In this document: positions 3,711 to 55,516 of the stretch, one piece after another
Position numbering within the stretch: position 1 is the stretch's first letter
How the letters are laid out: each line of letters begins with the position of its first letter
Assembly: GCA_024679955.1 (NCBI GenBank)
Contig: JAILCQ010000029.1
Span: forward strand, 1 to 64,000
Direction of reading: 5' to 3'
Origin: Bacillota bacterium
Lineage (GTDB): Bacteria; Bacillota; Dehalobacteriia; UBA4068
DNA length: 64,000 nt
The notes under the pieces: model-generated
Databases searched by the model: none
Seen by the model: only the letters and a program-made list of their open reading frames with translations
What the model was told of the DNA's origin: nothing
Program-made: the position numbers and the translations under genes

Positions 3711-4307
3711 TTACAGGGCTTTCATCGCCGCAAAACCGGCGTCAAAAGCTTTCATATTGGCTTCCAAAGCTTTGGCGGGAACGCGTTTTTGCAGGTTTTC
3801 TTTCCAGACATTTTCCGGGAAGTCCAGCATGGCGGCCAGAGCGCCCAACAGAACAACGCTGGCAACCTTTACGTTACCGATTTCTTTGGCCATTTTGTTG
3901 GCGTCGATGCATTTGACGTCATCCCGTTTTTTCAGCTCGACCAGAGCATCATCCGGATAATCGGCCATGCCGACGAAAGCCAGAGGCGGAATGATCCGAT
4001 CCTGATTGAGAATCATCACGCCGTCTTTGGCCAGATAATGGTTCCAGCGCAAACCTTCGGCTTCTTCAAAAGCCAAAATGACTTGGGCTTCGCCGGGGCT
4101 GATGAAAGGTGCGTATACTTTTTCGCCGAAACGGACCTGCGCGTGAACGCTGCCGCCCCTTTGGCTCATACCATGGGTTTCCGCTTTTTTAACATCCATT
4201 CCGTCGATGCAGCTTAATACGTCGGACAGAATATTACTGGCTAAAATAACGCCTTGACCGCCGCAACCAACGATAAGAACGTTTTGTGTTTCTTTGTAAT
4301 TAGCCAT
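3711..4307 (-). CDS. iorB: Indolepyruvate:ferredoxin oxidoreductase beta subunit (copy 1)
   Basis: A 198-residue gamma-domain protein of the 2-oxoacid:ferredoxin oxidoreductase family. It opens with the glycine-rich VLIVGCGGQGVILAS and continues with ETHGMSQRGGSVHAQVRFG, the hallmark of IorB/PorG subunits. With IorA it oxidatively decarboxylates aryl pyruvates to aryl-acetyl-CoA and passes electrons to ferredoxin. The ATG at 4307 was chosen because GGAGGTGA precedes it, whereas the upstream in-frame ATG lies inside iorA. It starts 2 nt after the iorA stop, so the two are translationally coupled. Confidence 0.93.
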   Translation of the reverse strand: MANYKETQNVLIVGCGGQGVILASNILSDVLSCIDGMDVKKAETHGMSQRGGSVHAQVRFGEKVYAPFISPGEAQVILAFEEAEGLRWNHYLAKDGVMILNQDRIIPPLAFVGMADYPDDALVELKKRDDVKCIDANKMAKEIGNVKVASVVLLGALAAMLDFPENVWKENLQKRVPAKALEANMKAFDAGFAAMKAL

Positions 4308-4309
4308 TG

Positions 4310-6091
4310 TTATTTCACCTCCCGAATCGCGTCTTTGGGGCAGATCTGCGCACAAATGGTGCAACCGACACAGTCGTCGGGGTTGATGCGAGGAATCAAT
4401 TTGCCTTTGTCGGTGGTTTGCTCGGTCAGTTCAAAGGCCGGGCAGGTGCACTGTTTGAGGCAGATATGGCAGCCGATGCATTTGTCCGCAACCACTTCGC
4501 ATTTTTGGGGAGCGACGTATTTCTTAGGATAGAGCATGCAGGGACGGTTGGTCATGACCACGGAAACGCCTTCATGAGCGGTGGTTTCTTTCAAAACATC
4601 CAGGCAGGCTTTGTAGTCGTAGGGATCCACGACATGAACGTCTTTTACGCCCAAAGCTTTACAAATTTCCGGAATGCTTACCGGGTCAGCCGGTACGCCG
4701 GAAAGGGTGTATTCGGTGCCGGGGTTGAACTGACCGCCGGTCATACCCGTGATGCTGTTGTTGAAGATCAACAGGGTGAGATTGCTCTTATTGTAAGCGG
4801 CGTTCAACAAACCGGTCATGCCGGAATGGAAGAAGGTGGAGTCGCCGATGACCGCAACGGTAGGTTTGTCCTGTTTGCCGGCACGGACAACGCCAACGGC
4901 GTTGCTGACGCTGCCGCCCATTTCCAGGTCGGTATGCATGATTTCAAACGGCGGCAGGGTGATCAGGTCGTAGCAACCGATATCGCCGCAAACGTTGAGG
5001 TCCAATTTTTTGATGGCCATGGAAATGCCTCTGTGGGGGCAGCCGGCGCATTGGACGGGCATACGCGGAACGCTCTTGGGCGGGTTGGCCACGATGTTCG
5101 CCATGTCTTTCCATCTGGGCAGGTCGATACCCGCTTTTATAAAGCCGGCGGCGATACGATCGGGGGTGAATTCGCCTTCCATGGGGAGCACTTCTTTGCC
5201 GATGACGGGGATGCCGGCGGCTTTGATATGTTCTTCGATGAAGGGCTCCAATTCTTCAACTACGAACAATTTTTCCACCGAAGCGGCGAATTTTTTGATC
5301 TTTTCCATCGGCAGGGGGAAGGTCATACCCAATTTGAGGAAGCTGGCATTGGGCATAACTTCTTTGGCGGCCTGATAGGTGACGCCGCTGCTGATGATAC
5401 CGATCTTTTTGTCGCCGGGTTCGATGCGGTTGATGTCGGATTCATTGCCCCATTCGGTCAGCAATCTTTCTCTTTCGATCAACCAGGTACGCAGTTTGCG
5501 GGCATAAGCGGGCAGCAAGCAATTCTTGGCAATATTCCGCTCAAAGCCTTTGCATTCATGCTCGGTGCGTTCGCCCAATTCTACCAAAGATTTGGAGTGG
5601 GAAAGACCGGTGGTGCTGCGCAGAATGACCGGGATATCGAATTTTTCGCTCAAATCCAGGGCCAAACCGACAAATTCTTTCGCTTCCTGGCTGTCGCTGG
5701 GTTCCAAAATCGGGCAGCGCGCCAATTTGGCGAAATAGCGGTCATCTTGTTCCGTAGAGGAACTGGCCATACCGGGATCGCCGCAAATGACCATGACAAA
5801 GCCGCCGTTTACGCCGGCATGGGTGAAGGCTACCAAGGGATCGCAGGCCACGTTGGCGCCGGCGCTTTTCATGGTAGTCATGGTACGGCTGCCGCCGAAA
5901 GAAGCGCCGATGGCAACTTCGGTGGCGACCTTTTCGTTGGTGGCCCATTCGACATAAATCACGTCTTTGTATTCAGCGGTATTCTTGAGAATTTCGCTGC
6001 TGGGCGTTCCGGGATAGGCGGAAGCAACTTTGACGCCGTATTCATAAGCGCCGCGGGCAATTGCTTCATTGCCGGATAACAAAGCTTTCAT
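4310..6091 (-). CDS. iorA: Indolepyruvate:ferredoxin oxidoreductase alpha subunit (copy 1)
   Basis: A 593-residue catalytic subunit. The N-terminal half is the pyrimidine-binding domain (SAYPGTPSSEI near residue 27). The middle carries the TPP/Mg site (GDIGCYDL, then GDSTFFHSGMTG and an NN pair). The C-terminus holds two [4Fe-4S] motifs, CIGCHICLKQC-x-CP and CVGCTICAQICP. The enzyme makes arylacetyl-CoA, CO2 and reduced ferredoxin from indolepyruvate, phenylpyruvate or hydroxyphenylpyruvate. An excellent AGGAGG precedes the start. It is followed by iorB 2 nt later. It shares domain order with iorA2 at 12372-14168, but the two are clearly divergent paralogues rather than a recent duplication. 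Confidence 0.95.
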   Translation of the reverse strand: MKALLSGNEAIARGAYEYGVKVASAYPGTPSSEILKNTAEYKDVIYVEWATNEKVATEVAIGASFGGSRTMTTMKSAGANVACDPLVAFTHAGVNGGFVMVICGDPGMASSSTEQDDRYFAKLARCPILEPSDSQEAKEFVGLALDLSEKFDIPVILRSTTGLSHSKSLVELGERTEHECKGFERNIAKNCLLPAYARKLRTWLIERERLLTEWGNESDINRIEPGDKKIGIISSGVTYQAAKEVMPNASFLKLGMTFPLPMEKIKKFAASVEKLFVVEELEPFIEEHIKAAGIPVIGKEVLPMEGEFTPDRIAAGFIKAGIDLPRWKDMANIVANPPKSVPRMPVQCAGCPHRGISMAIKKLDLNVCGDIGCYDLITLPPFEIMHTDLEMGGSVSNAVGVVRAGKQDKPTVAVIGDSTFFHSGMTGLLNAAYNKSNLTLLIFNNSITGMTGGQFNPGTEYTLSGVPADPVSIPEICKALGVKDVHVVDPYDYKACLDVLKETTAHEGVSVVMTNRPCMLYPKKYVAPQKCEVVADKCIGCHICLKQCTCPAFELTEQTTDKGKLIPRINPDDCVGCTICAQICPKDAIREVK

Positions 6092-6122
6092 ACTTGATCC
6101 TCCTCCGAAAGTAGATATATTT

Positions 6123-6152
6123 AATATAACATAAAACAGCCCCGCTTTTCAA
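6123..6152 (-). promoter_or_regulatory. Promoter of iorAB copy 1
   Basis: On the minus strand TTGAAA (6147-6152) and TATATT (6123-6128) are 18 nt apart, about 30 nt upstream of the iorA start. The resulting leader is short, unlike that of iorA2. Confidence 0.55.
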
Positions 6153-6243
6153 TATGTTTTCAAATATAAAAACAATTGTTGTGCCTGCAAAGGAAAACGA
6201 TCGACAGCTTTTTCCAGAAAAGCTTCGATCCCTTTTAATTGGT

Positions 6244-6273
6244 GAGCCGGCGGCTGCGAACAACCGCCGGCTC
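6244..6273 (-). terminator. GC-rich hairpin downstream of the BCCT gene
   Basis: A perfect 10-bp inverted repeat (GAGCCGGCGG / CCGCCGGCTC, 10-nt loop) lies between the BCCT stop and the iorA1 promoter. No clear T tract follows on the minus strand, so it may be a weak terminator or an mRNA 3'-end stabiliser. Confidence 0.45.
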
Positions 6274-6321
6274 ATTCAAGCATAGAGCGGGTAACAGTCT
6301 TACAGGTAACGCATACCTAGA

Positions 6322-7878
6322 TTAAGCAATGGTTTCTTCGGATTCCGGCAGTTTGTGGGGGATTCTGTCGTCGCCGAAAACTTCCAAGTATTCTTTGTTC
6401 AACATCTTCATCGTGGAGAACGGCATCAGCGCAACCACGAAGGAGAAGGGGAAGGCAAAGACGATGGAAACCGTTTGCAGGGCGCTCAATCCGCCGGTCT
6501 GCATCAGCACCAAACCGGAGATACCGATGATGATACCCATCGTTACCTTGGTGCCAACCTTCGGCGTTACGCTGCCTTTGTTGATGCAGGCCGCGCAATA
6601 GAAGGAAGCCGCGTCGGCGGAGGTGCAGACGAACACGACCATGTTGATCAGTACCAACAGGGAGAGGAATATTCCTGCGGGATAGGTGCTGAACAGGACG
6701 TACAAGCCGGATTGCGAGTATTCGGAAATGGTTTCATACATAGGCGCGATATTGTTGATGTCGGAGAAGATCGCAGCGCCGCCCAAAATGCCGAACCAAA
6801 GTACGGTCAAGATGGTGGGAGCGATCAGGGCGCCCATGATAAATTCGCGAATGGTGCGGCCTTTGGAGATCTTGGCAATGAAGCCGCCCACGAAAGGCGT
6901 CCAGCACAGCCACCAGCCCCAATAGAAAATGGTCCACCAATTCAGCCAACCGCTGGTTTCCACAGTATCCAGGAAGAAGTGGATTTGGAAGAAGTGATCC
7001 AGGTAGCCGCCGATATTGGTAACGGTGGCGTTGAGGATGAAGCGGGTGGGGCCCAAAATCAGGATCAGTGCCATCATGGCGAGGGACAGATACACATTGG
7101 CGGTACTCAGACGTTTGATGCCTCTGCCGATACCAACGGAGCTGGAAAGCAGGAAGGTCGCCACAACCAAAAGCATGATCACGATGTTCAGCATTACGGA
7201 GTTTTCAATACCGAACATGTAGTTGGCGCCGTAAGAAACGGACATAACGCCCAAACCGATGGTGGTGCAGATACCGGCGATGGTGGCGATGACGGACAGG
7301 GTGTCGATGACTTTACCCCAAGGTCCATGCACTTTGTCGCCCAATACGCCGTACAGCGCGCCGGCCATGGTCAAGGGCTGACCGTGACGGTAGGCGGCAA
7401 AACCGATGGCCAAAGCCGCCAGGGTGCAGGGGCCCCAGGCCACGATGCCCCAGTGGGACGTGCTGATGGCCAGAGAGGCGGACAAGCTTTCTTCGGTCGC
7501 GGGATCCGCCAGCAGATACACTCTGTCATGCAAGTGCAGGATCGGTTCGGCAACGCCCCAGAAGATCAAGCCGACGCCCACGTTGGAGCTGAACAGCATA
7601 GCGATCCAGGAGAAGGTGCTGTGCTCCGGACGGTCGCTCATCTTACCGACGCGGAGTTTACCGTATTTGCTGACCAACAGATACAACAGGAAGAAGCAAA
7701 CGCTGTTTGCCAGGATGGCATACCACCAACCGAAGTTGGTCACGATGCCGTCGTTTAATCCGCTCCAGAAGGTGTTAAACGTATCGGGAATGGCGATAGC
7801 AAATATGACCAAACCGATCATGACGAGAACGGAAATAAGGAACATTCCCTTATAATAATCGCCAAATAATTTACTCAT
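6322..7878 (-). CDS. BCCT-family transporter (betaine/carnitine/choline type)
   Basis: A 518-residue inner-membrane protein with about 12 hydrophobic helices. The BCCT signature is clear: SNVGVGLIFWGVAEP in the third helix and WTIFYWGWWLCWTPFVGGF with ISKGRTIREF following, close to the tryptophan box of BetP and CaiT. The third-helix glycine motif reads NVGVG where BetP has a Met-Gly-Ile-Gly type sequence, so coupling ion and substrate are uncertain. The gene lies between two arylacetate-type loci; a role in importing a quaternary amine or zwitterionic substrate for fermentation is possible but not shown. Start ATG has GGAGGAG upstream. Confidence 0.92.
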   Translation of the reverse strand: MSKLFGDYYKGMFLISVLVMIGLVIFAIAIPDTFNTFWSGLNDGIVTNFGWWYAILANSVCFFLLYLLVSKYGKLRVGKMSDRPEHSTFSWIAMLFSSNVGVGLIFWGVAEPILHLHDRVYLLADPATEESLSASLAISTSHWGIVAWGPCTLAALAIGFAAYRHGQPLTMAGALYGVLGDKVHGPWGKVIDTLSVIATIAGICTTIGLGVMSVSYGANYMFGIENSVMLNIVIMLLVVATFLLSSSVGIGRGIKRLSTANVYLSLAMMALILILGPTRFILNATVTNIGGYLDHFFQIHFFLDTVETSGWLNWWTIFYWGWWLCWTPFVGGFIAKISKGRTIREFIMGALIAPTILTVLWFGILGGAAIFSDINNIAPMYETISEYSQSGLYVLFSTYPAGIFLSLLVLINMVVFVCTSADAASFYCAACINKGSVTPKVGTKVTMGIIIGISGLVLMQTGGLSALQTVSIVFAFPFSFVVALMPFSTMKMLNKEYLEVFGDDRIPHKLPESEETIA

Positions 7879-8013
7879 GTTTTCTCCTCCATTTTCTATA
7901 AGATATAAGTCCTTTACTTATAAGTCTTTTACCCGTCGTATGCAGACAATACCGGATGAAGACAGGGGATGCGCGTCCATTTTCACGCTATCCCTACTGC
8001 AATATATCGAAAG

Positions 8014-8057
8014 GCCCGAACGGCTAGATGAATAGAGGATGGAACTAGCCGTTCGGG
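8014..8057 (-). terminator. Terminator of the phenylacetate-CoA ligase gene (copy 1)
   Basis: The 13-bp inverted repeat CCCGAACGGCTAG with its complement and an 18-nt loop lies just past the stop of the minus-strand ligase gene. Confidence 0.65.
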
Positions 8058-8076
8058 TTTGCTTCGTTATATTATA

Positions 8077-9420
8077 TTAGACGATCGGAGCACGTCTGTC
8101 TTCCACACGTTTGCTGGCGGTTTTACCGTGTTCCGCATCGCGCGGCAGGCTGCCGGCGGGTTTCAGCTCGACGGTGGGGGTCATGCCCAGATGCGTCTTG
8201 CACTGGCTGACAACTTCTTTGTTCAGTTTGGCGGCTTCAACTTCATTGTTCAGGATGTCGTTGTTTTCGACTTCCGCCAAAATGGTCAGATGGTCTTTTT
8301 CATGGACGGTTTCGATGATCATCCGGAAGTTATTGCCGATACCTTTGATGTGATCCAAGGTTTCTTCCACTTTGCTGGGGAATACAACATAGCCGGAGAT
8401 GGACAGCGCGTCGTCGCTGCGGCCTAAGATACGGCCCATCTTGGGATGGGTACGTCCGCAAGCGCAGGGTTCCCAAGAAATGCTGGCCACGTCGTGGCTG
8501 CGGTATCTCAGCATAGCGCAGCTGTCGGAACCGATCCAGGAGAATACCACTTCGCCTTGTTCGCCGTCGCCGACCCATTCGCCGGTTTCCGGATTGATGC
8601 ATTCAACCAGGATATGATCCGCCCAAACGTGCATGCCGTTTTGTTCTTTACATTCGCAGGCCATGCCTGGGCCAAGGAATTCGCCCATACCGAATTCGTT
8701 ATAGGCTTTGATTCCCAGGGATTCTTCCAATCTGGCGCGGGTGCTTTCGGGCCAGGGTTCGGCGCCGAACAGACCGTTTTTCAGTTTGGAATCATGCGCA
8801 AGATCGATGCCTTTTTCCAAGGCTTTTTCAACCATGTACATACCGTAGGTAGGCGTGGTGGTCAGGGTGGTTACGCCAAAGTCTTTGATCAGGTCAACCA
8901 GGAATTCGGTACGGCCGATACCGCCGGGCACAACGCCCATATCCATGGACTGCGCGCCATAGTGGAAGCCGATACCGGTGGCAAGACCATAAGCGAAGGA
9001 CATGATCAGCAAGTCGCCGGGGCGGCAGCCGCAGGCCCACAGCTCACGGGCGTTGACCATCGCCCAGTTGTCCATATCCTGTTGGGTGGCGCAAATGGCG
9101 ATCGCTTTACCGGTGGTGCCGGAGGTGGTGTGATATTCGCGGACGTCTTTTTGATCCGCCATCAGCAGTTCAAAAGGATAAGCGCTGCGAACGATTTTCT
9201 TTTCCAGGAAGGGCAGTTTTTGAATGTCTTCATAAACTTTGATATCGTCGGGGGTAACGCCTTTTTCTACCAACAATTTTTTGTAGTAGGCATTGGTGGC
9301 GTAAGCTTTTTTAACGATATTCTGCACCTTTTTCAGTTGCATTTCTCTGATTTGTTCCACCGGCATGGTTTCGATTTCCGGTTGGAGATATTCGCTGGTT
9401 ACGCTGACATTATATCTCAT
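8077..9420 (-). CDS. paaK: Phenylacetate-CoA ligase (copy 1)
   Basis: A 447-residue adenylate-forming enzyme of the PaaK type. The P-loop motif HTTSGTTGKA is near residue 97. YNEFGMGEFLGPG replaces the usual Tyr-Gly-x-Ser-Glu region. The Cys pair of SWEPCACGRTHP and the GRSDD motif are typical of PaaK, and the C-terminal AMP-binding domain ends with a DAEHGKTAS segment carrying the catalytic Lys region. It activates aryl acetates with ATP and CoA, or may run in reverse to gain ATP from arylacetyl-CoA made by IorAB. It is monocistronic, with a hairpin terminator behind it and a 1.1-kb non-coding region in front. Confidence 0.92.
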   Translation of the reverse strand: MRYNVSVTSEYLQPEIETMPVEQIREMQLKKVQNIVKKAYATNAYYKKLLVEKGVTPDDIKVYEDIQKLPFLEKKIVRSAYPFELLMADQKDVREYHTTSGTTGKAIAICATQQDMDNWAMVNARELWACGCRPGDLLIMSFAYGLATGIGFHYGAQSMDMGVVPGGIGRTEFLVDLIKDFGVTTLTTTPTYGMYMVEKALEKGIDLAHDSKLKNGLFGAEPWPESTRARLEESLGIKAYNEFGMGEFLGPGMACECKEQNGMHVWADHILVECINPETGEWVGDGEQGEVVFSWIGSDSCAMLRYRSHDVASISWEPCACGRTHPKMGRILGRSDDALSISGYVVFPSKVEETLDHIKGIGNNFRMIIETVHEKDHLTILAEVENNDILNNEVEAAKLNKEVVSQCKTHLGMTPTVELKPAGSLPRDAEHGKTASKRVEDRRAPIV

Positions 9421-10535: not shown

Positions 10536-11783
10536 TCAATAGCGATAGTCAAAAATGCGGGTGGATTTTTTTTCGCTTCTGGGCAGTTCGCCCAGGGCCA
10601 CGGCTTTGGGAACCACGGTGATGTTGATTGCGGATTTGATCGCATCTTTTAAAGTCTTTTCAAAATGCTGTTTCTGTTCTTCCGCGTCCACCACGGCGGT
10701 TTCCACAAATACGGTGATCCTGTCTTTTCCGTGTTCATGATCGATAAAAACCTGGTATTCGCTGGAAGCGTCGGGAATGGTTTTCAGGATATCGTCGATT
10801 TGTCCCGGGAAAATGTTGACCCCTTTGACTTTTACCATGTCGTCGGTGCGGCCCAAAATCACGTCTATCCGGGGATAGCGCCGTCCGCAGGGGCAGGGCG
10901 TATCGTCGGGGATGATCCGGGTCAGGTCGTGGGTGCGGTAGCGGATCAGGGGCGCGCCTTCCTTTTGCAGGGTGGTGATCACCAATTCGCCCAATTCGCC
11001 GTCTTCCAGGTTTTCACCGGTTTTGGAATTGATGATTTCAAAATACAGATAATCGTCGAAATAATGCATGCCGGTATTGTATTCGCAGTTGATGGCGATG
11101 CCCGGGCCGTATACTTCGGTCAGCCCGTAAATATCGTATAATTCTACGCCCAATTCCCCGGCGATGCGATGGCGCATCTTTTCGCCCCAGCGTTCCGAGC
11201 CGATAATGCCTTTGCGCAGGCAAATCTCGCTTTTGCAGCCCCGCTTTTCGATTTCTTCCGCCAGCAGCAGGGCGTAAGAAGAGGTGGCGCACAATACGGT
11301 GGAGCGCATATCTTTCATAAACTGTATTTGCTTATCCGTGTTGCCGGGGCCCATGGGCAGCGCCATCGCGCCCAAACGTTCGGCTCCCAACTGAAAGCCG
11401 ATGCCCGCGGTCCACAAACCGTAGCCGGGGGTGATATGGATCCGGTCTTTTTTGGTCAGACCGGCGATCTCATAACATCTGTGAAACAGCAGCGCCCAGT
11501 CGTCCACGTCTTTTTTTGTATAGGGGATGATCACCGGCACCCCGGTGGTGCCGCTGGAGGAGTGGATACGGACGATCTCTTCTTCCGGTACGGCGGCTAA
11601 ACCCAGGGGATAGGCGTCCCGCAAATCGCTTTTTTCCGAAAAGGGGAGGCGTTGAAAGTCTTCCTGGCTGCGGATATCGTCCGGATCGACGCCGGCTAAT
11701 TTTTTGGCGTAAAAACCGCCGGCCCGGTTCACACGTTTCAGTTGGGTGCGGATTTGTTCCAGGGTTTGGTCGGACATTTTCAT
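10536..11783 (-). CDS. paaK: Phenylacetate-CoA ligase (copy 2, operon with iorAB2)
   Basis: A 415-residue PaaK-type adenylate-forming enzyme, shorter at the N-terminus than copy 1. The P-loop SSSGTTGVP is near residue 75, followed by YDIYGLTEVYGPG, a Cys pair in TPCPCGRRYP, and GRTDDMVKVKGVNIFPGQ. It starts 12 nt after the iorB2 stop with AGGAG upstream, so it is cotranscribed. Linkage to an indolepyruvate oxidoreductase is a known arrangement, coupling aryl-pyruvate oxidation to interconversion of the arylacetate and its CoA ester, for fermentation or for reductive aromatic amino acid synthesis. Confidence 0.92.
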   Translation of the reverse strand: MKMSDQTLEQIRTQLKRVNRAGGFYAKKLAGVDPDDIRSQEDFQRLPFSEKSDLRDAYPLGLAAVPEEEIVRIHSSSGTTGVPVIIPYTKKDVDDWALLFHRCYEIAGLTKKDRIHITPGYGLWTAGIGFQLGAERLGAMALPMGPGNTDKQIQFMKDMRSTVLCATSSYALLLAEEIEKRGCKSEICLRKGIIGSERWGEKMRHRIAGELGVELYDIYGLTEVYGPGIAINCEYNTGMHYFDDYLYFEIINSKTGENLEDGELGELVITTLQKEGAPLIRYRTHDLTRIIPDDTPCPCGRRYPRIDVILGRTDDMVKVKGVNIFPGQIDDILKTIPDASSEYQVFIDHEHGKDRITVFVETAVVDAEEQKQHFEKTLKDAIKSAINITVVPKAVALGELPRSEKKSTRIFDYRY

Positions 11784-11795
11784 GGCGTTTCTCTC

Positions 11796-12371
11796 CTAAA
11801 GCAACTTGGCGCCTATGGCTAAGGCTTGCCTGTTCAGGGCCAACAGTTGCGGTTTTATTTTTCTTTGCAGGGCGTTTTGTATGTTTTCCAAAGTCAGATC
11901 CATGACGCCGCTTTGGGCCATGGCGCCCAATAAGGCGATATTCAGCGCCTTCAGCGTGCCGCAGGCGTCGTAAACGGCTTGACAGGGGATGATATGACAG
12001 CGGCCGGCGTTTTGCTGCAAATAGGCCAGCATCTCGCCGCCGTCATAGGGCTGGGCAGAGCAGGCGGCGATGGGCTGCACGGTTTTATCGCAAACGATGA
12101 CCGCGCCGTCTTTTTTTAAATAATGCAGGTTCCTTACCGCTTCGCCGGGCTCGAAACCGATGATCAAATCGGCTTTTCCCGGCGGGATCAGCGGCGAGGC
12201 CACCTTTTCGCCGATGCGCACATGGCTGACCACGCAGCCGCCCCGTTGCGCCATGCCGATGGTTTCCGCCGTTCTGGCAAACCAGTCCTTTTCCAAAGCG
12301 GCCCCGGCGATGATGCGGGAGGCAAGCACCGTGCCCTGGCCGCCAACGCCGCATAAAAGACAGCTTTTCAT
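11796..12371 (-). CDS. iorB: Indolepyruvate:ferredoxin oxidoreductase beta subunit (copy 2)
   Basis: A 191-residue IorB with the N-terminal CLLCGVGGQGTVLASRII nucleotide-type loop and the ETIGMAQRGGCVVSHVRIG motif. The middle has an acidic GFEPGEA stretch, as in copy 1 (AFEEAEG). Its ATG directly follows the iorA2 stop codon, and the ribosome binding site AGGAGGAAA lies inside iorA2, so synthesis of the two subunits is coupled. The downstream ligase gene follows after 12 nt. Confidence 0.93.
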   Translation of the reverse strand: MKSCLLCGVGGQGTVLASRIIAGAALEKDWFARTAETIGMAQRGGCVVSHVRIGEKVASPLIPPGKADLIIGFEPGEAVRNLHYLKKDGAVIVCDKTVQPIAACSAQPYDGGEMLAYLQQNAGRCHIIPCQAVYDACGTLKALNIALLGAMAQSGVMDLTLENIQNALQRKIKPQLLALNRQALAIGAKLL

Positions 12372-14168
12372 TTAGCTTTCCTCCTGTATGATACATGCTT
12401 GCGGGCAGATTTGCCGGCACAGGCCGCAGCCGTTGCATAAGCTGGCGTCGATCACCGCCCGGTCCTCCGGGCCGAAGCTCAATGCGGGACAGCCCAGCTG
12501 CCGCAGGCAAAGGCGGCAGCCGCTGCAGCGGCCGGCGTCTACTTTCAGCGGTTTTGTATTTTTGAGCAAGGCTGCGCAGGGGGAACGGAAAACAATGGCC
12601 CGTACGCCCTCCTGCCTCAGAGCCGTTTTGACGGCGGCCACCGCTTGCTTATGCTCCAGAGGGTCTACCGTCTGAACATGTTCCACCCCCAGGGCGGTCA
12701 GGACTTTTTCAATGCTGACCGGCGCTACCTTTTGGCCGGAAATGGTTTTTCCCATACCGGGATGGCTTTGATTGCCGGTCATGGCGGTGGTGCCGTTATC
12801 CAATACGATCAGGATCAGCTGGGCCTGATTGGTCAAGGCGTTGACAACGCCGTTGATGCCCGAAGCAAAAAACGTGGAATCGCCGATAAAGGCGAAGGGG
12901 ATATCCCGGATCTTCGAGTGGAAAAGCCCCTGGGCCATGGTGACGCCGGCGCCCATGCACAGACAGGTATCCACCATATGCAAAGGCGGCGCGTTGCCCA
13001 GAGTATAGCAGCCGATATCGCCGCAAAAGATAGCCGATTGGCCAGCACAGGCTTTTTTCACGGCGTAAAAGGAAGCCCGGTGGGGGCAACCGGCGCATAA
13101 CACCGGCGGCCGGGTGGGAACAGGCGGCAGATCTGCTCCGGGCTGCGGCTCCGGCGGGGCTTCGCATACGCCGTGAGCGGACAGGATCTTGCCAATGGCC
13201 GCGGCGCTCAATTCCCCGGCCACGGCTACGCTATGATCCCGTTTGCCGGAGATTTGGGCGCGTATGCCGTTCTTGCCGCATAAATAGATGAGCTCGTCTT
13301 CGATCACCGGGTCCAATTCCTCGAAAACAAAGACTCTTTCCGTTTCTTTCAAAAAAGATAGGGCCAAATCCTCGGGAAATGGATAGGGAGTGGCGATTTT
13401 CAAAACTTGAAACAGATGCTCCCGGCCTTCAATAGCTTCCTGCACATAGGCATAGCTGACGCCGCCGCAGGCGATGCCGGTTTTCCCGGCGCCGATGCGC
13501 TGGTTGAAAGGATAGCCGCAAAAGTCCCGGCCGATTTCCGGTTCCCGGGCTACCAGTTTTTGCTTATTTATATAGGAAAGACGGGGAAAAATCACCCATT
13601 GGCTGCCTTTTTCAAAAGCCGTTTCCCCTTTGGGCGGGGAGATCTGGGGGATCTCCACCGGCGCGCAGGAATGGCAAACCCTGGTGGTGGAGCGCAGGAT
13701 CACCGGCCCGCCGTATTTTTCCGAATAGGCAAAGGCATCCTGCACCATATAGAAGGCTTCTTCCGGCGAAGAGCAGTCGAATACCGGGATGCGGGCATAT
13801 TGGGCGAAATGCCGCGTATCCTGCTCCGTTTGGGAAGAAATGGGGCCTGGATCGTCGGCGACATAAATGACCAGCCCGCCTTTTATCCCCACGTAATTGA
13901 CGCACATCACGGGGTCGGCGGCTACGTTCAGCCCCACTTGCTTCATGGTGACCAAGGCTCTGGCCCCGGTATAGGCTGCCCCCACGGCCACTTCCGCAGC
14001 GGATTTTTCATTGACTGACCATTCTACATGCACCCAGCCGGGATTGATTTTGGCCAAAGTTTCCAGGGTCTCGGTGGAGGGCGTGCCGGGATAGCCGCAG
14101 GCTACCGATACGCCGGCAGCCAAAGCGCCCCAGGCCACGGCTTCATTTCCCATTAGCAATTCTTTCAT
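12372..14168 (-). CDS. iorA: Indolepyruvate:ferredoxin oxidoreductase alpha subunit (copy 2)
   Basis: A 598-residue IorA. The N-terminal region has ACGYPGTPSTETLE. The TPP site reads GDIGCYTLG and GDSTFFASGINGVVNAL with a following DNGTTAMTG. The C-terminal ferredoxin part has CSGCRLCLRQLGCP and CNGCGLCRQICP, so both [4Fe-4S] clusters should form. It heads the iorA2-iorB2-ligase operon. Expression is probably controlled by the 5' leader at 14169-14355, whose intrinsic terminator ends about 27 nt before the start codon. The translational start has only a modest AAGGA. Confidence 0.95.
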   Translation of the reverse strand: MKELLMGNEAVAWGALAAGVSVACGYPGTPSTETLETLAKINPGWVHVEWSVNEKSAAEVAVGAAYTGARALVTMKQVGLNVAADPVMCVNYVGIKGGLVIYVADDPGPISSQTEQDTRHFAQYARIPVFDCSSPEEAFYMVQDAFAYSEKYGGPVILRSTTRVCHSCAPVEIPQISPPKGETAFEKGSQWVIFPRLSYINKQKLVAREPEIGRDFCGYPFNQRIGAGKTGIACGGVSYAYVQEAIEGREHLFQVLKIATPYPFPEDLALSFLKETERVFVFEELDPVIEDELIYLCGKNGIRAQISGKRDHSVAVAGELSAAAIGKILSAHGVCEAPPEPQPGADLPPVPTRPPVLCAGCPHRASFYAVKKACAGQSAIFCGDIGCYTLGNAPPLHMVDTCLCMGAGVTMAQGLFHSKIRDIPFAFIGDSTFFASGINGVVNALTNQAQLILIVLDNGTTAMTGNQSHPGMGKTISGQKVAPVSIEKVLTALGVEHVQTVDPLEHKQAVAAVKTALRQEGVRAIVFRSPCAALLKNTKPLKVDAGRCSGCRLCLRQLGCPALSFGPEDRAVIDASLCNGCGLCRQICPQACIIQEES

Positions 14169-14194
14169 TACCGTTATCCTTTTCTGTTGGTTTT

Positions 14195-14231
14195 AAAAAA
14201 AATCTGCCCTTGAGCAGCGATGCAAGGACAG
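14195..14231 (-). terminator. Intrinsic terminator (attenuator) in the iorA2 leader
   Basis: Read on the minus strand, CTG-T-CCTTG pairs with CAAGG-G-CAG around an 11-nt loop, followed by an A and a run of eight T. It lies between the promoter and the iorA2 start codon, so it can only act as a regulated terminator or it would silence the operon. Confidence 0.8.
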
Positions 14232-14355
14232 AGGTTTTCGCTGGTTGAAATGGAGTATGGGTTTTGCAGGCGACCGTCGCAAAGCGACTTCCCGGCATAA
14301 TTCCGCAAATGCCTCCGAAAAAGCGCGGCCAAACGCCGGATACGCCTGGAAATAC
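14232..14355 (-). ncRNA. Structured 5' leader of iorA2, riboswitch-like, class unknown
   Basis: On the minus strand the leader can fold into a multi-helix element. A closing stem CAGGCG/CGCCTG pairs 14343-14348 with 14267-14272. An inner stem CCGGC/GCCGG pairs 14335-14339 with 14292-14296 and encloses a further CCGC/GCGG helix. A small hairpin GTCGC-ttt-GCGAC lies at 14276-14288. It is followed by the intrinsic terminator at 14195-14231. I compared it from memory with TPP, glycine, SAM, lysine, cobalamin, c-di-GMP, T-box and FMN elements and found no match. It may sense an aromatic metabolite or a cofactor; that is inference. Confidence 0.55.
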
Positions 14356-14360
14356 AAGTT

Positions 14361-14390
14361 ATTTTATCATATTCAGAAGAGGATTGTCAA
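14361..14390 (-). promoter_or_regulatory. Promoter of the iorA2 operon
   Basis: A consensus TTGACA (14385-14390 on the minus strand) and TAAAAT (14361-14366) are separated by 18 nt. Transcription would start near 14354, giving a leader of about 185 nt. Confidence 0.75.
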
Positions 14391-14512: not shown

Positions 14513-14656
14513 GATATATTGACTTTTGCTTTTCTTTGCTTTATGATTTATAATATAGACAATCTGTTTATTCGGTTTCGCGGAATCGGATTTTCAGGCT
14601 GCTTTTGAATGCTTTCTTCATTAAAATAAATAAAAATCATAACAGGAGGGGCGTAT

Positions 14657-16510
14657 ATGCATTGCACAAGAAAAGTTCAAGAGGATTTGTATTGGGTAGG
14701 CGCCAACGACCGGCGTTTGTCGCTTTTTGAAGGGGTGTATGCGGTACCCAAGGGCGTATCCTACAATTCCTATTTGTTGCTGGATGAGAAAACGGTGCTG
14801 TTCGATACGGTAGATCAGGCGGTATCGCAGGCTTTTTTTGAGAACATCCGCTATGCCTTGGCCGGCCGGGATCTGGATTACGTCGTGATCCAGCATATGG
14901 AGCCGGATCATTCCGCCACTTTGGGAGAATTGCTGTGCAAATATCCCCAGGTCCGCCTGGTTTGCAATGAGAAAATCGCCGTTATGATACAGCAATATTT
15001 TGACGTGGATGTCCGGGACCGGGCGCTCATCGTCAAAGAAGGGGATACCTTCTCCAGCGGCAAGCATACCTTTGCTTTCGTTATGGCGCCGATGGTGCAT
15101 TGGCCGGAAGTGATGGTCACCTATGATCAAACCGATAGAATCCTCTTTTCCGCCGATGCTTTCGGCACCTTTGGCGCATTGAACGGCGCGCTTTTTGCCG
15201 ACGAAGTGGATTTCTATGGAGATTATATGGACGAAGCCCGCCGCTATTACTGCAATATCGTCGGTAAATACGGCCAGCAGGTGCAGGCGTTGTTGCAAAA
15301 AGCCGCCGGTTTGGACATTGAGATGATTTGTCCTTTGCACGGTTTTGTGCACCGCAAACACCTTGGCGATTTCATTGAGAAATACCAAAAATGGAGCGCC
15401 TATATCCCGGAAGAAAAAGGGGTCATGATCGCTTACGCTTCCGTTTACGGGCATACGGAAAACGCCGCGGATATCCTGGCCTGCCGTTTGCGGGACAAAG
15501 GCGTTCCCACCGTTATGTTTGACGTATCGGTCACGCCGGCCTCGGAAATCATCGCCGCGGCTTTCCGTTACAGCCATTTGGTATTTGCTTCCACCACCTA
15601 TAATGCGGGCGTCTTTGTCAGCATGGATGAATTGCTGCGGGATTTGGCGGCGCATAATCTGCAAAACCGTACCGTGGCCATCGTACAAAACGGTTCCTGG
15701 GCGCCTGCCAGCGGCAAATTGATGAAGGAAATCCTCTCCACCATGAAAAACATTACCTTTATCGAGCAAGACCTTACACTCAAATCCGCTTTGAAGGAAT
15801 CCCAGGAGGAAGAGATCGAAGCCTTGACGGCGGCCATCGCCGCGGATTTCCCCGGCCAGTTTGCCAATGCCGCCGCTAAGCCTGCCGCCGCAGGGACCAT
15901 CGATAATACGGCCATGTTCAAACTGTCCTACGGCCTGTTCGTACTGACCCTGCATGAAGAGGGCAAAGACAGCGGCTGCATCATCAATACGGCCATCCAA
16001 ATCGCCGATAAGCCCAAACGGATCAGCTTCGCGGTGAACAAAGCCAACTACAGCCATGATATGCTGATGCGGACCGGTGTGTTTAATATATCCATCCTCA
16101 GCGAAGACGTTCCCTTCAGCCTGTTCCGCCATTTCGGTTTCCAAAGCGGCCGGGATACCGACAAATTCGCCGACTGGACGGAGGCCAAGCGCAGCGCCAA
16201 CGGCGTCTATTATATCACCCAGGCCACCAACGCCTTTATTTCCGGTAAAATCGTGGCGGCGGTGGACAACGGCAGCCATACCCTGTTTACGGCGGATATC
16301 ACGGAAGCGCAAAAGCTCAGCGACGTTACTTCCATCACCTATGATTATTACTTCAAGCATGTGAAACCCAAACCGCAGCCTACCGCCGAAAAGAAAAAAG
16401 GCTTTGTCTGCAAGATCTGCGGTTATGTGTATGAAGGCGACGTCTTGCCGCCGGATTTCATTTGCCCCCTGTGCAAACATGGCGCGGAGGATTTTGAGCC
16501 TTTGTCCTGA
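14657..16510 (+). CDS. Multidomain flavodiiron protein: FprA core + flavin reductase + short rubredoxin
   Basis: A 617-residue fusion. Residues 1-250 form the metallo-beta-lactamase-like diiron domain, with ligands in HMEPDH (80-85), H148, D167 and H228. Residues 255-395 are a flavodoxin domain with the FMN loop YASVYGHTENA. Residues about 418-570 resemble a flavin reductase domain. The end is a rubredoxin with C585, C588, C603 and C606, having only 14 residues between the two Cys pairs. Moorella encodes FprA and its reductase Hrb (flavin reductase plus rubredoxin) as separate adjacent genes; here they appear joined, giving a possible one-chain NAD(P)H:O2 or NO reductase. AGGAGG precedes the ATG. 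Confidence 0.9.
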   Translation: MHCTRKVQEDLYWVGANDRRLSLFEGVYAVPKGVSYNSYLLLDEKTVLFDTVDQAVSQAFFENIRYALAGRDLDYVVIQHMEPDHSATLGELLCKYPQVRLVCNEKIAVMIQQYFDVDVRDRALIVKEGDTFSSGKHTFAFVMAPMVHWPEVMVTYDQTDRILFSADAFGTFGALNGALFADEVDFYGDYMDEARRYYCNIVGKYGQQVQALLQKAAGLDIEMICPLHGFVHRKHLGDFIEKYQKWSAYIPEEKGVMIAYASVYGHTENAADILACRLRDKGVPTVMFDVSVTPASEIIAAAFRYSHLVFASTTYNAGVFVSMDELLRDLAAHNLQNRTVAIVQNGSWAPASGKLMKEILSTMKNITFIEQDLTLKSALKESQEEEIEALTAAIAADFPGQFANAAAKPAAAGTIDNTAMFKLSYGLFVLTLHEEGKDSGCIINTAIQIADKPKRISFAVNKANYSHDMLMRTGVFNISILSEDVPFSLFRHFGFQSGRDTDKFADWTEAKRSANGVYYITQATNAFISGKIVAAVDNGSHTLFTADITEAQKLSDVTSITYDYYFKHVKPKPQPTAEKKKGFVCKICGYVYEGDVLPPDFICPLCKHGAEDFEPLS

Positions 16511-55100: not shown

Positions 55101-55295
55101 GATTATCGTTTTTCACAGCAAACGGCAGCTTTCGGAATTTCGCTGTAGATTAGTGGCACAGGAACCGATGCATCACCGCAACAGAAAAATCGATAGAATA
55201 AAAAATTCAACCCAATTTGACGCCGTCATGCCGCGGCAAGACTTGACAAATGCCGCTGAGGCGGATATACTGGCAATAGAATTGAATAGAACAAA

Positions 55296-55403
55296 ATCTT
55301 CAGGGCAGGGTGCAATTCCCGACCGGTGGTAAAGCCCACGAGCCGCAAGGCATGATTCGGTGCAACTCCGAAGCCGATAGTATAGTCTGGATGAAAGAAG
55401 ATG
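55296..55403 (+). promoter_or_regulatory. FMN riboswitch (RFN element)
   Basis: All conserved blocks are present: ATCTTCAGGGCAGGGTG at the start, AATTCCCGACCGGTGGTA, AGCCCACGAGC, GATTCGGTG-x-AACTCCGAAGCCGA and the closing GTATAGTCTGGATG-AAAGAAGAT. It precedes ribD and, with the terminator at 55517-55545, controls the riboflavin operon by FMN. Confidence 0.97.
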
Positions 55404-55516
55404 ACGAAGCGCGGAAGGCAAAAAGCATTTCTGCGCAGGAAGAGACTGCTCTGGAATGTTTTGCATTCCGGAGTTTTGTGTTTCTGCGGAAACGCCGTCC
55501 CGTTGTTGCCAGTTGG

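Follow-up and report, generated by a model that had tools for sequence, protein, structure and literature searches.

The iorA2 operon of the window (the whole stretch of 64,000 nucleotides that was analysed) is preceded by a leader which a sequence-only reading had proposed as a possible new riboswitch or attenuator. The question raised by this locus is to which class of regulatory RNA, if any, the leader belongs. All of the leader elements lie on the minus strand. The consensus promoter, for which that reading gave no strand, was confirmed there. The predicted transcript start is near 14354, giving a leader of ~185 nt up to iorA2, the ATG of which is at 14168. The promoter and the genes downstream are as follows:

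14361 to 14390, minus strand: sigma-70-type promoter TTGACA-18-TAAAAT with an extended -10 TG (11 of 12 consensus matches)
12372 to 14168, minus strand: iorA2, indolepyruvate ferredoxin oxidoreductase alpha subunit (TIGR03336 cut-off exceeded)
11796 to 12371, minus strand: iorB2, indolepyruvate oxidoreductase beta subunit (the best-fitting models are for IOR beta, with scores under the curated cut-offs)
10536 to 11783, minus strand: phenylacetate-CoA-ligase-like AMP-forming ligase (gene order matching that of the congener and of 16 T-box-bearing loci)

The leader was present as a single copy in the genome, which ruled out a repeat or mobile element. A second IOR set (3711–9420) lies 1 kb away from the iorA2 operon; in it, iorB1 (3711–4364) overlaps iorA1 (4310–6091), and the pair adjoins a BCCT transporter (6322–7878) and another PaaK-like ligase (8077–9420). 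The divergent gene at 14657–16510 (plus strand) encodes a multi-domain flavoprotein with ODP beta-lactamase-like, flavodoxin, flavin reductase and rubredoxin-like domains, and has a promoter-like site at 14519–14547. An FMN riboswitch was identified elsewhere in the window (55292–55406, plus strand, 108.9 bits).

Conservation of the Leader

The only close relative compared was a congener (genome G001, CASEQE010000008.1, loci L003 and L015), the IorA of which is 83% identical to that of the window. To judge by this congener, the window derives from a Peptococcaceae-like bacterium of the gut. The promoter (TTGACA...TAGAAT in the congener), leader and terminator were found at the same place in L015. 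The alignment of the two leaders was good over a 3' core only, and the remainder had diverged beyond alignment. The two parts of the leader are:

14199 to 14246, minus strand: conserved 3' core AACCAGCGAAAACCTCTGTCCTTGCATCGCTGCTCAAGGGCAGATTTT (~48 nt, three substitutions in the congener)
14247 to 14354, minus strand: variable 5' leader domain, a three-way junction predicted by folding and not conserved in the congener

The core of both species follows the pattern AACCAGCGAAAAC-N-TCTGTCCTTG-N-ATCGCTGCTCAAGG(G/A)CAGATTTT, and its folding was better than that of shuffled sequences (z of -2.4 in the window and -4.8 in the congener). The folding of the whole leader was within chance (z of -1.4, with 16 of 200 shuffles equally good), as was that of the 5' domain (z of -1.25, with 14% of the shuffles equally good). 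The three nested helices described previously were all located in the 5' domain, namely CAGGCG/CGCCTG (14348–14343/14272–14267), CCGGC/GCCGG (14339–14335/14296–14292) and GTCGC/GCGAC (14288–14284/14280–14276). They fold like shuffled sequence, and none was present in the congener leader. A lack of conservation of the helices in relatives, which the sequence-only reading had named as evidence against its proposal, therefore applies to these three, and not to the terminator/anti-terminator core, which had not been singled out.

Terminator and Anti-Terminator Hairpins

The elements of the two hairpins predicted in this region are:

14223 to 14232, minus strand: terminator 5' arm TCTGTCCTTG (the T-box antiterminator 3' strand of homologous leaders)
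14203 to 14212, minus strand: terminator 3' arm CAAGGGCAGA (by folding, both species)
14195 to 14202, minus strand: T-tract TTTTTTTT, eight T (from the sequence)
14238 to 14243, minus strand: anti-terminator 5' strand CAGCGA (pairs with 14220–14215)
14215 to 14220, minus strand: anti-terminator 3' strand UCGCUG, within the terminator loop (by folding)

The 10-bp intrinsic terminator spans 14232–14195 (TCTGTCCTTG-CATCGCTGCT-CAAGGGCAGA-TTTTTTTT, with an N10 loop). Its run of eight T, noted previously as standing just before the start codon, is present and ends 26 nt short of the ATG. When the growing transcript was folded, the CAGCGA/UCGCUG pairing had a probability of 0.96–0.98 until the terminator 3' arm emerged and of <0.01 once that arm was complete, with the terminator taking over after six to eight of its bases, in both species. 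The two hairpins are predicted to be mutually exclusive. A pseudoknot holding both stems at once was considered unlikely, because only two nucleotides would cross the six-pair stem. With a conserved pair of hairpins predicted to exclude each other, one of them a good intrinsic terminator, the leader very probably is a true transcription attenuator, and the earlier use of that term is supported.

The anti-terminator was calculated at -6.3 kcal/mol and the terminator at -12.5/-14.1 kcal/mol, and the predicted equilibrium is all terminator. As the anti-terminator is far weaker at equilibrium, it may do little without a stabiliser. The covariation in relatives that had been proposed as a check was not observed. 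The six pairs of CAGCGA/UCGCUG were invariant in both species and the terminator carried a single U-A/U-G change, so there was no covariation either way. No compensatory change was identified in the core between its two species, and because only these two carry it, covariation cannot be shown.

Distribution of the Core and Comparison with Known Regulatory RNAs

No Rfam family matched the leader at gathering score or to E 10 (561 nt), in agreement with the earlier statement that it could be assigned to no known riboswitch class. The core was found in the two congeneric species only, among ~660 genomes searched in all (a DNA search of 199 related genomes, and a covariance model run on 43 genomes of the class and 398 of the phylum). 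It was found before no other gene in these genomes, and no second copy of the site was identified in the window genome or the congener genome. Weak additional matches corresponded to the terminator of an FMN riboswitch (L149), a terminator at a coding end (L148) and unrelated sites, and were discounted.

A new small metabolite riboswitch, with the ~48-nt core as its aptamer, would be consistent with the compactness of the core, its unpaired conserved bases and the absence of an Rfam match. This is improbable, however, given that the core occurs in no other genome searched and before no other gene, that the two exclusive stems explain most of the conserved bases, and that a T-box origin accounts for the terminator. 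The suggestion of a new riboswitch that senses a cofactor, an aromatic acid or an amino acid was thus not sustained, as the named helices are not conserved, no covariation can be shown, and the terminator is most readily accounted for as what is left of a Trp T-box.

The leader resembles the T-box (RF00230, class I, Trp-specific, of other Clostridia) in its operon, its position, the choice between terminator and anti-terminator, the terminator 5' arm TCTGTCCTT(G), the T-tract and the similar energies of the two states. The terminator 5' arm is of the UGUCCUU type that T-boxes share between terminator and antiterminator 3' strand, and as in other attenuators an intrinsic terminator stands between promoter and gene. 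In contrast to the T-box, the window leader is without Stem I, specifier, UGGNACC bulge and recognisable Stem III; its terminator loop is larger by the new UCGCUG strand; and its anti-terminator pairing is CAGCGA/UCGCUG rather than AAGG..CAGA/UCUG..CCUU. The RF00230 covariance model gave no match on 561 nt at gathering score or to E 10, and the UGGN/T-box bulge sequence GGUGGNACC was absent from the leaders of the window and the congener. A Stem I with specifier was not identified, with no significant match in the 5' domain and, by reading, no UGG in the congener leader. The defining features of a T-box were tested for and not found, so the leader is not a T-box, though it would work as a T-box expression platform does. 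A T-box that has degenerated but can still respond to tRNA-Trp would have the operon, locus and terminator of the Trp T-boxes; it is highly improbable in view of the missing model match and UGGN bulge and of a congener leader without any UGG.

Like the BglG/SacY RAT sites, ANTAR targets and TRAP sites, the leader has a short hairpin overlapping a terminator. Its geometry differs from theirs in the 17-nt loop with the terminator arm inside, and no RNA-binding protein matching RAT or TRAP was found in either genome. The trp-type leader-peptide attenuators similarly place exclusive hairpins before a biosynthetic operon, whereas the window leader has no conserved leader peptide or run of control codons. 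A leader-peptide attenuator was rejected, there being no conserved ORF and no Trp-rich peptide in the leader.

Tryptophan T-Boxes at Homologous Operons

Of the 83 homologous loci, 17 had a T-box before iorA that carried GGUGGNACC and a terminator and was followed by iorA-iorB-ligase; five of these leaders were above the Rfam gathering score. The gene order was kept in all T-box loci that can be read. The sequence AA-UGG, containing the Trp codon UGG, was read by inspection at the specifier position in 16 of the 17, with that position as placed by the Rfam alignments of L117, L119 and L123. T-boxes with the UGG context upstream of iorA were seen in many Clostridia and included those of L123, L031, L055, L047, L090, L045, L069 and L026, among others. 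One of them, L123 (genome G012, 84.5 bits), belongs to the same family as the window. A further UGG-context T-box lies ~0.9 kb downstream of iorA in L085 (5590–5735), with the same CTGTCCTTG terminator arm.

The T-box carriers were scattered over the IorA tree, so gain and loss of the T-box are common at the iorA operon. One carrier, L031, falls inside the well-supported 16-member clade that holds the window. The window's genome itself retains two T-boxes with UGG context, before trpB-like and trpE-like genes (L117 and L119; genes named from the beginnings of their proteins). In this genus, the iorA operon has probably left the tRNA-Trp regulon, and trpE and trpB have not.

Origin of the Terminator

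The terminator 5' arm of the homologous T-boxes doubles as their antiterminator 3' strand and has the sequence (T)CTGTCCTT(G). When terminator-like hairpins were picked from the 83 loci by a simple rule, TGTCCTT was present in 8 of 16 T-box terminators and in 1 of 157 others, that one being the congener leader. The core itself was absent from the other homologous loci when its model was run over 636 kb of them. The best outside match (E of 0.0086) was the T-box terminator of L055, which stands directly upstream of iorA and shares with the window an identical run of 18 bases reaching from its 3' arm into the T-tract. The weaker matches included the T-box terminators of L047 and L090. The energies of the window attenuator fall within the range of the T-boxes of homologous operons folded free of tRNA (anti-terminator median of -7.3 kcal/mol, gap 10.9). 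Compared with these T-boxes, the window lacks GGUGGNACC and has exactly two extra, complementary segments, CCAGCGAAAAC and UCGCUG.

No significant similarity to the homologous T-boxes was found in the 5' domain by alignment against shuffles or by profile search. The window 5' domain aligned with stem IIA/B of L031 over 20 of 25 columns, a result equalled by 37 of 200 shuffles, and the congener leader aligned with stem II of L026, equalled by 3 of 200. Both were rejected as T-box relics, and these alignments were left out of the evidence for descent, which consequently comes from the terminator and its location.

We favour the reading that the leader is probably an attenuator descended from a Trp T-box, which lost tRNA sensing, kept the terminator and acquired a new anti-terminator; the descent is something that we infer. 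The parts that sense tRNA, namely the UGGN antiterminator bulge and the specifier-bearing Stem I, would have been lost or replaced and the T-box terminator retained, with CAGCGA/UCGCUG now standing in for the T-box antiterminator. As the leader is transcribed, the CAGCGA...UCGCUG hairpin would form first and hold the terminator 5' arm in its loop. The emerging CAAGGGCAGA would then let the more stable terminator displace it and stop RNA polymerase, so that read-through into iorA would be partial, set by the competition between the hairpins and by any stabiliser of the first. Such kinetic competition in the cell is suggested by the folding predictions.

Alternatively, the leader may be a functionless remnant of a T-box terminator with fixed low expression, in which CAGCGA/UCGCUG arose by chance. 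Shuffling gave a 6-bp match between segments this long in ~1% of cases, which is not negligible, and an equilibrium that is all terminator would also fit. We regard this as decidedly unlikely, since 48 nt have only three changes where the remainder of the leader can no longer be aligned, and since CAGCGAAAAC, which lies outside the terminator, is conserved too.

Candidate Signals

An unpaired AAAAC beside CAGCGA was conserved in both species, outside both stems. This, and the need of the anti-terminator for a stabiliser if it is to win, could be explained by a factor-dependent antitermination site, at which a protein or small RNA binds CAGCGAAAAC and stabilises the anti-terminator. Neither a TRAP gene nor a BglG-type RNA-binding domain was found in either genome, with controls that worked, and each genome has the site only once; the explanation is considered a minority one, on the unlikely side. 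An ANTAR search returned nothing, and its control failed as well.

Rather unlikely, also, is that the T-box has turned, in this genus, into a ~48-nt attenuator sensing a non-tRNA signal (protein, small RNA or metabolite) via CAGCGAAAAC. If true, this would be a new class of regulatory RNA that arose out of another class's expression platform.

Probable Pathway Direction and Possible Turnover of Regulators

A Trp T-box activates its genes under a shortage of charged tRNA-Trp. Trp T-boxes at iorA-iorB-ligase thus imply induction at low charged tRNA-Trp, and hence the tryptophan-making direction. Reductive carboxylation of arylacetates is known in anaerobes. In the T-box carriers, iorA-iorB-ligase most likely makes Trp from indoleacetate by reductive carboxylation and is not catabolic; the proposed route would run from indoleacetate through indoleacetyl-CoA and indolepyruvate to Trp. 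No mention of T-boxes linked to iorA-iorB-ligase was found in the literature searched, most subscription papers being outside its scope. The presence of Trp T-boxes at these genes matters for the annotation of the 'indolepyruvate oxidoreductase plus aryl-CoA ligase' set.

A different candidate attenuator was noted at iorA-iorB-ligase in L124 (1241–1500; genome G018, same family). Its leader has a Shine-Dalgarno AGAGG and a 19-codon ORF, MLLSIAINIATIASLSGNW*, with Trp as the last codon before the stop, followed by the terminator CTCCTCAT-TGATGAGGAG-T6. Within the family, the operon has a Trp T-box in L123, a candidate Trp-codon leader peptide in L124 and no leader recognised in L125. If the reading of the window leader as an attenuator descended from a Trp T-box is right, its T-box terminator with an exchanged anti-terminator would make visible an intermediate stage in the replacement of one RNA regulator by another, at one operon within one family.
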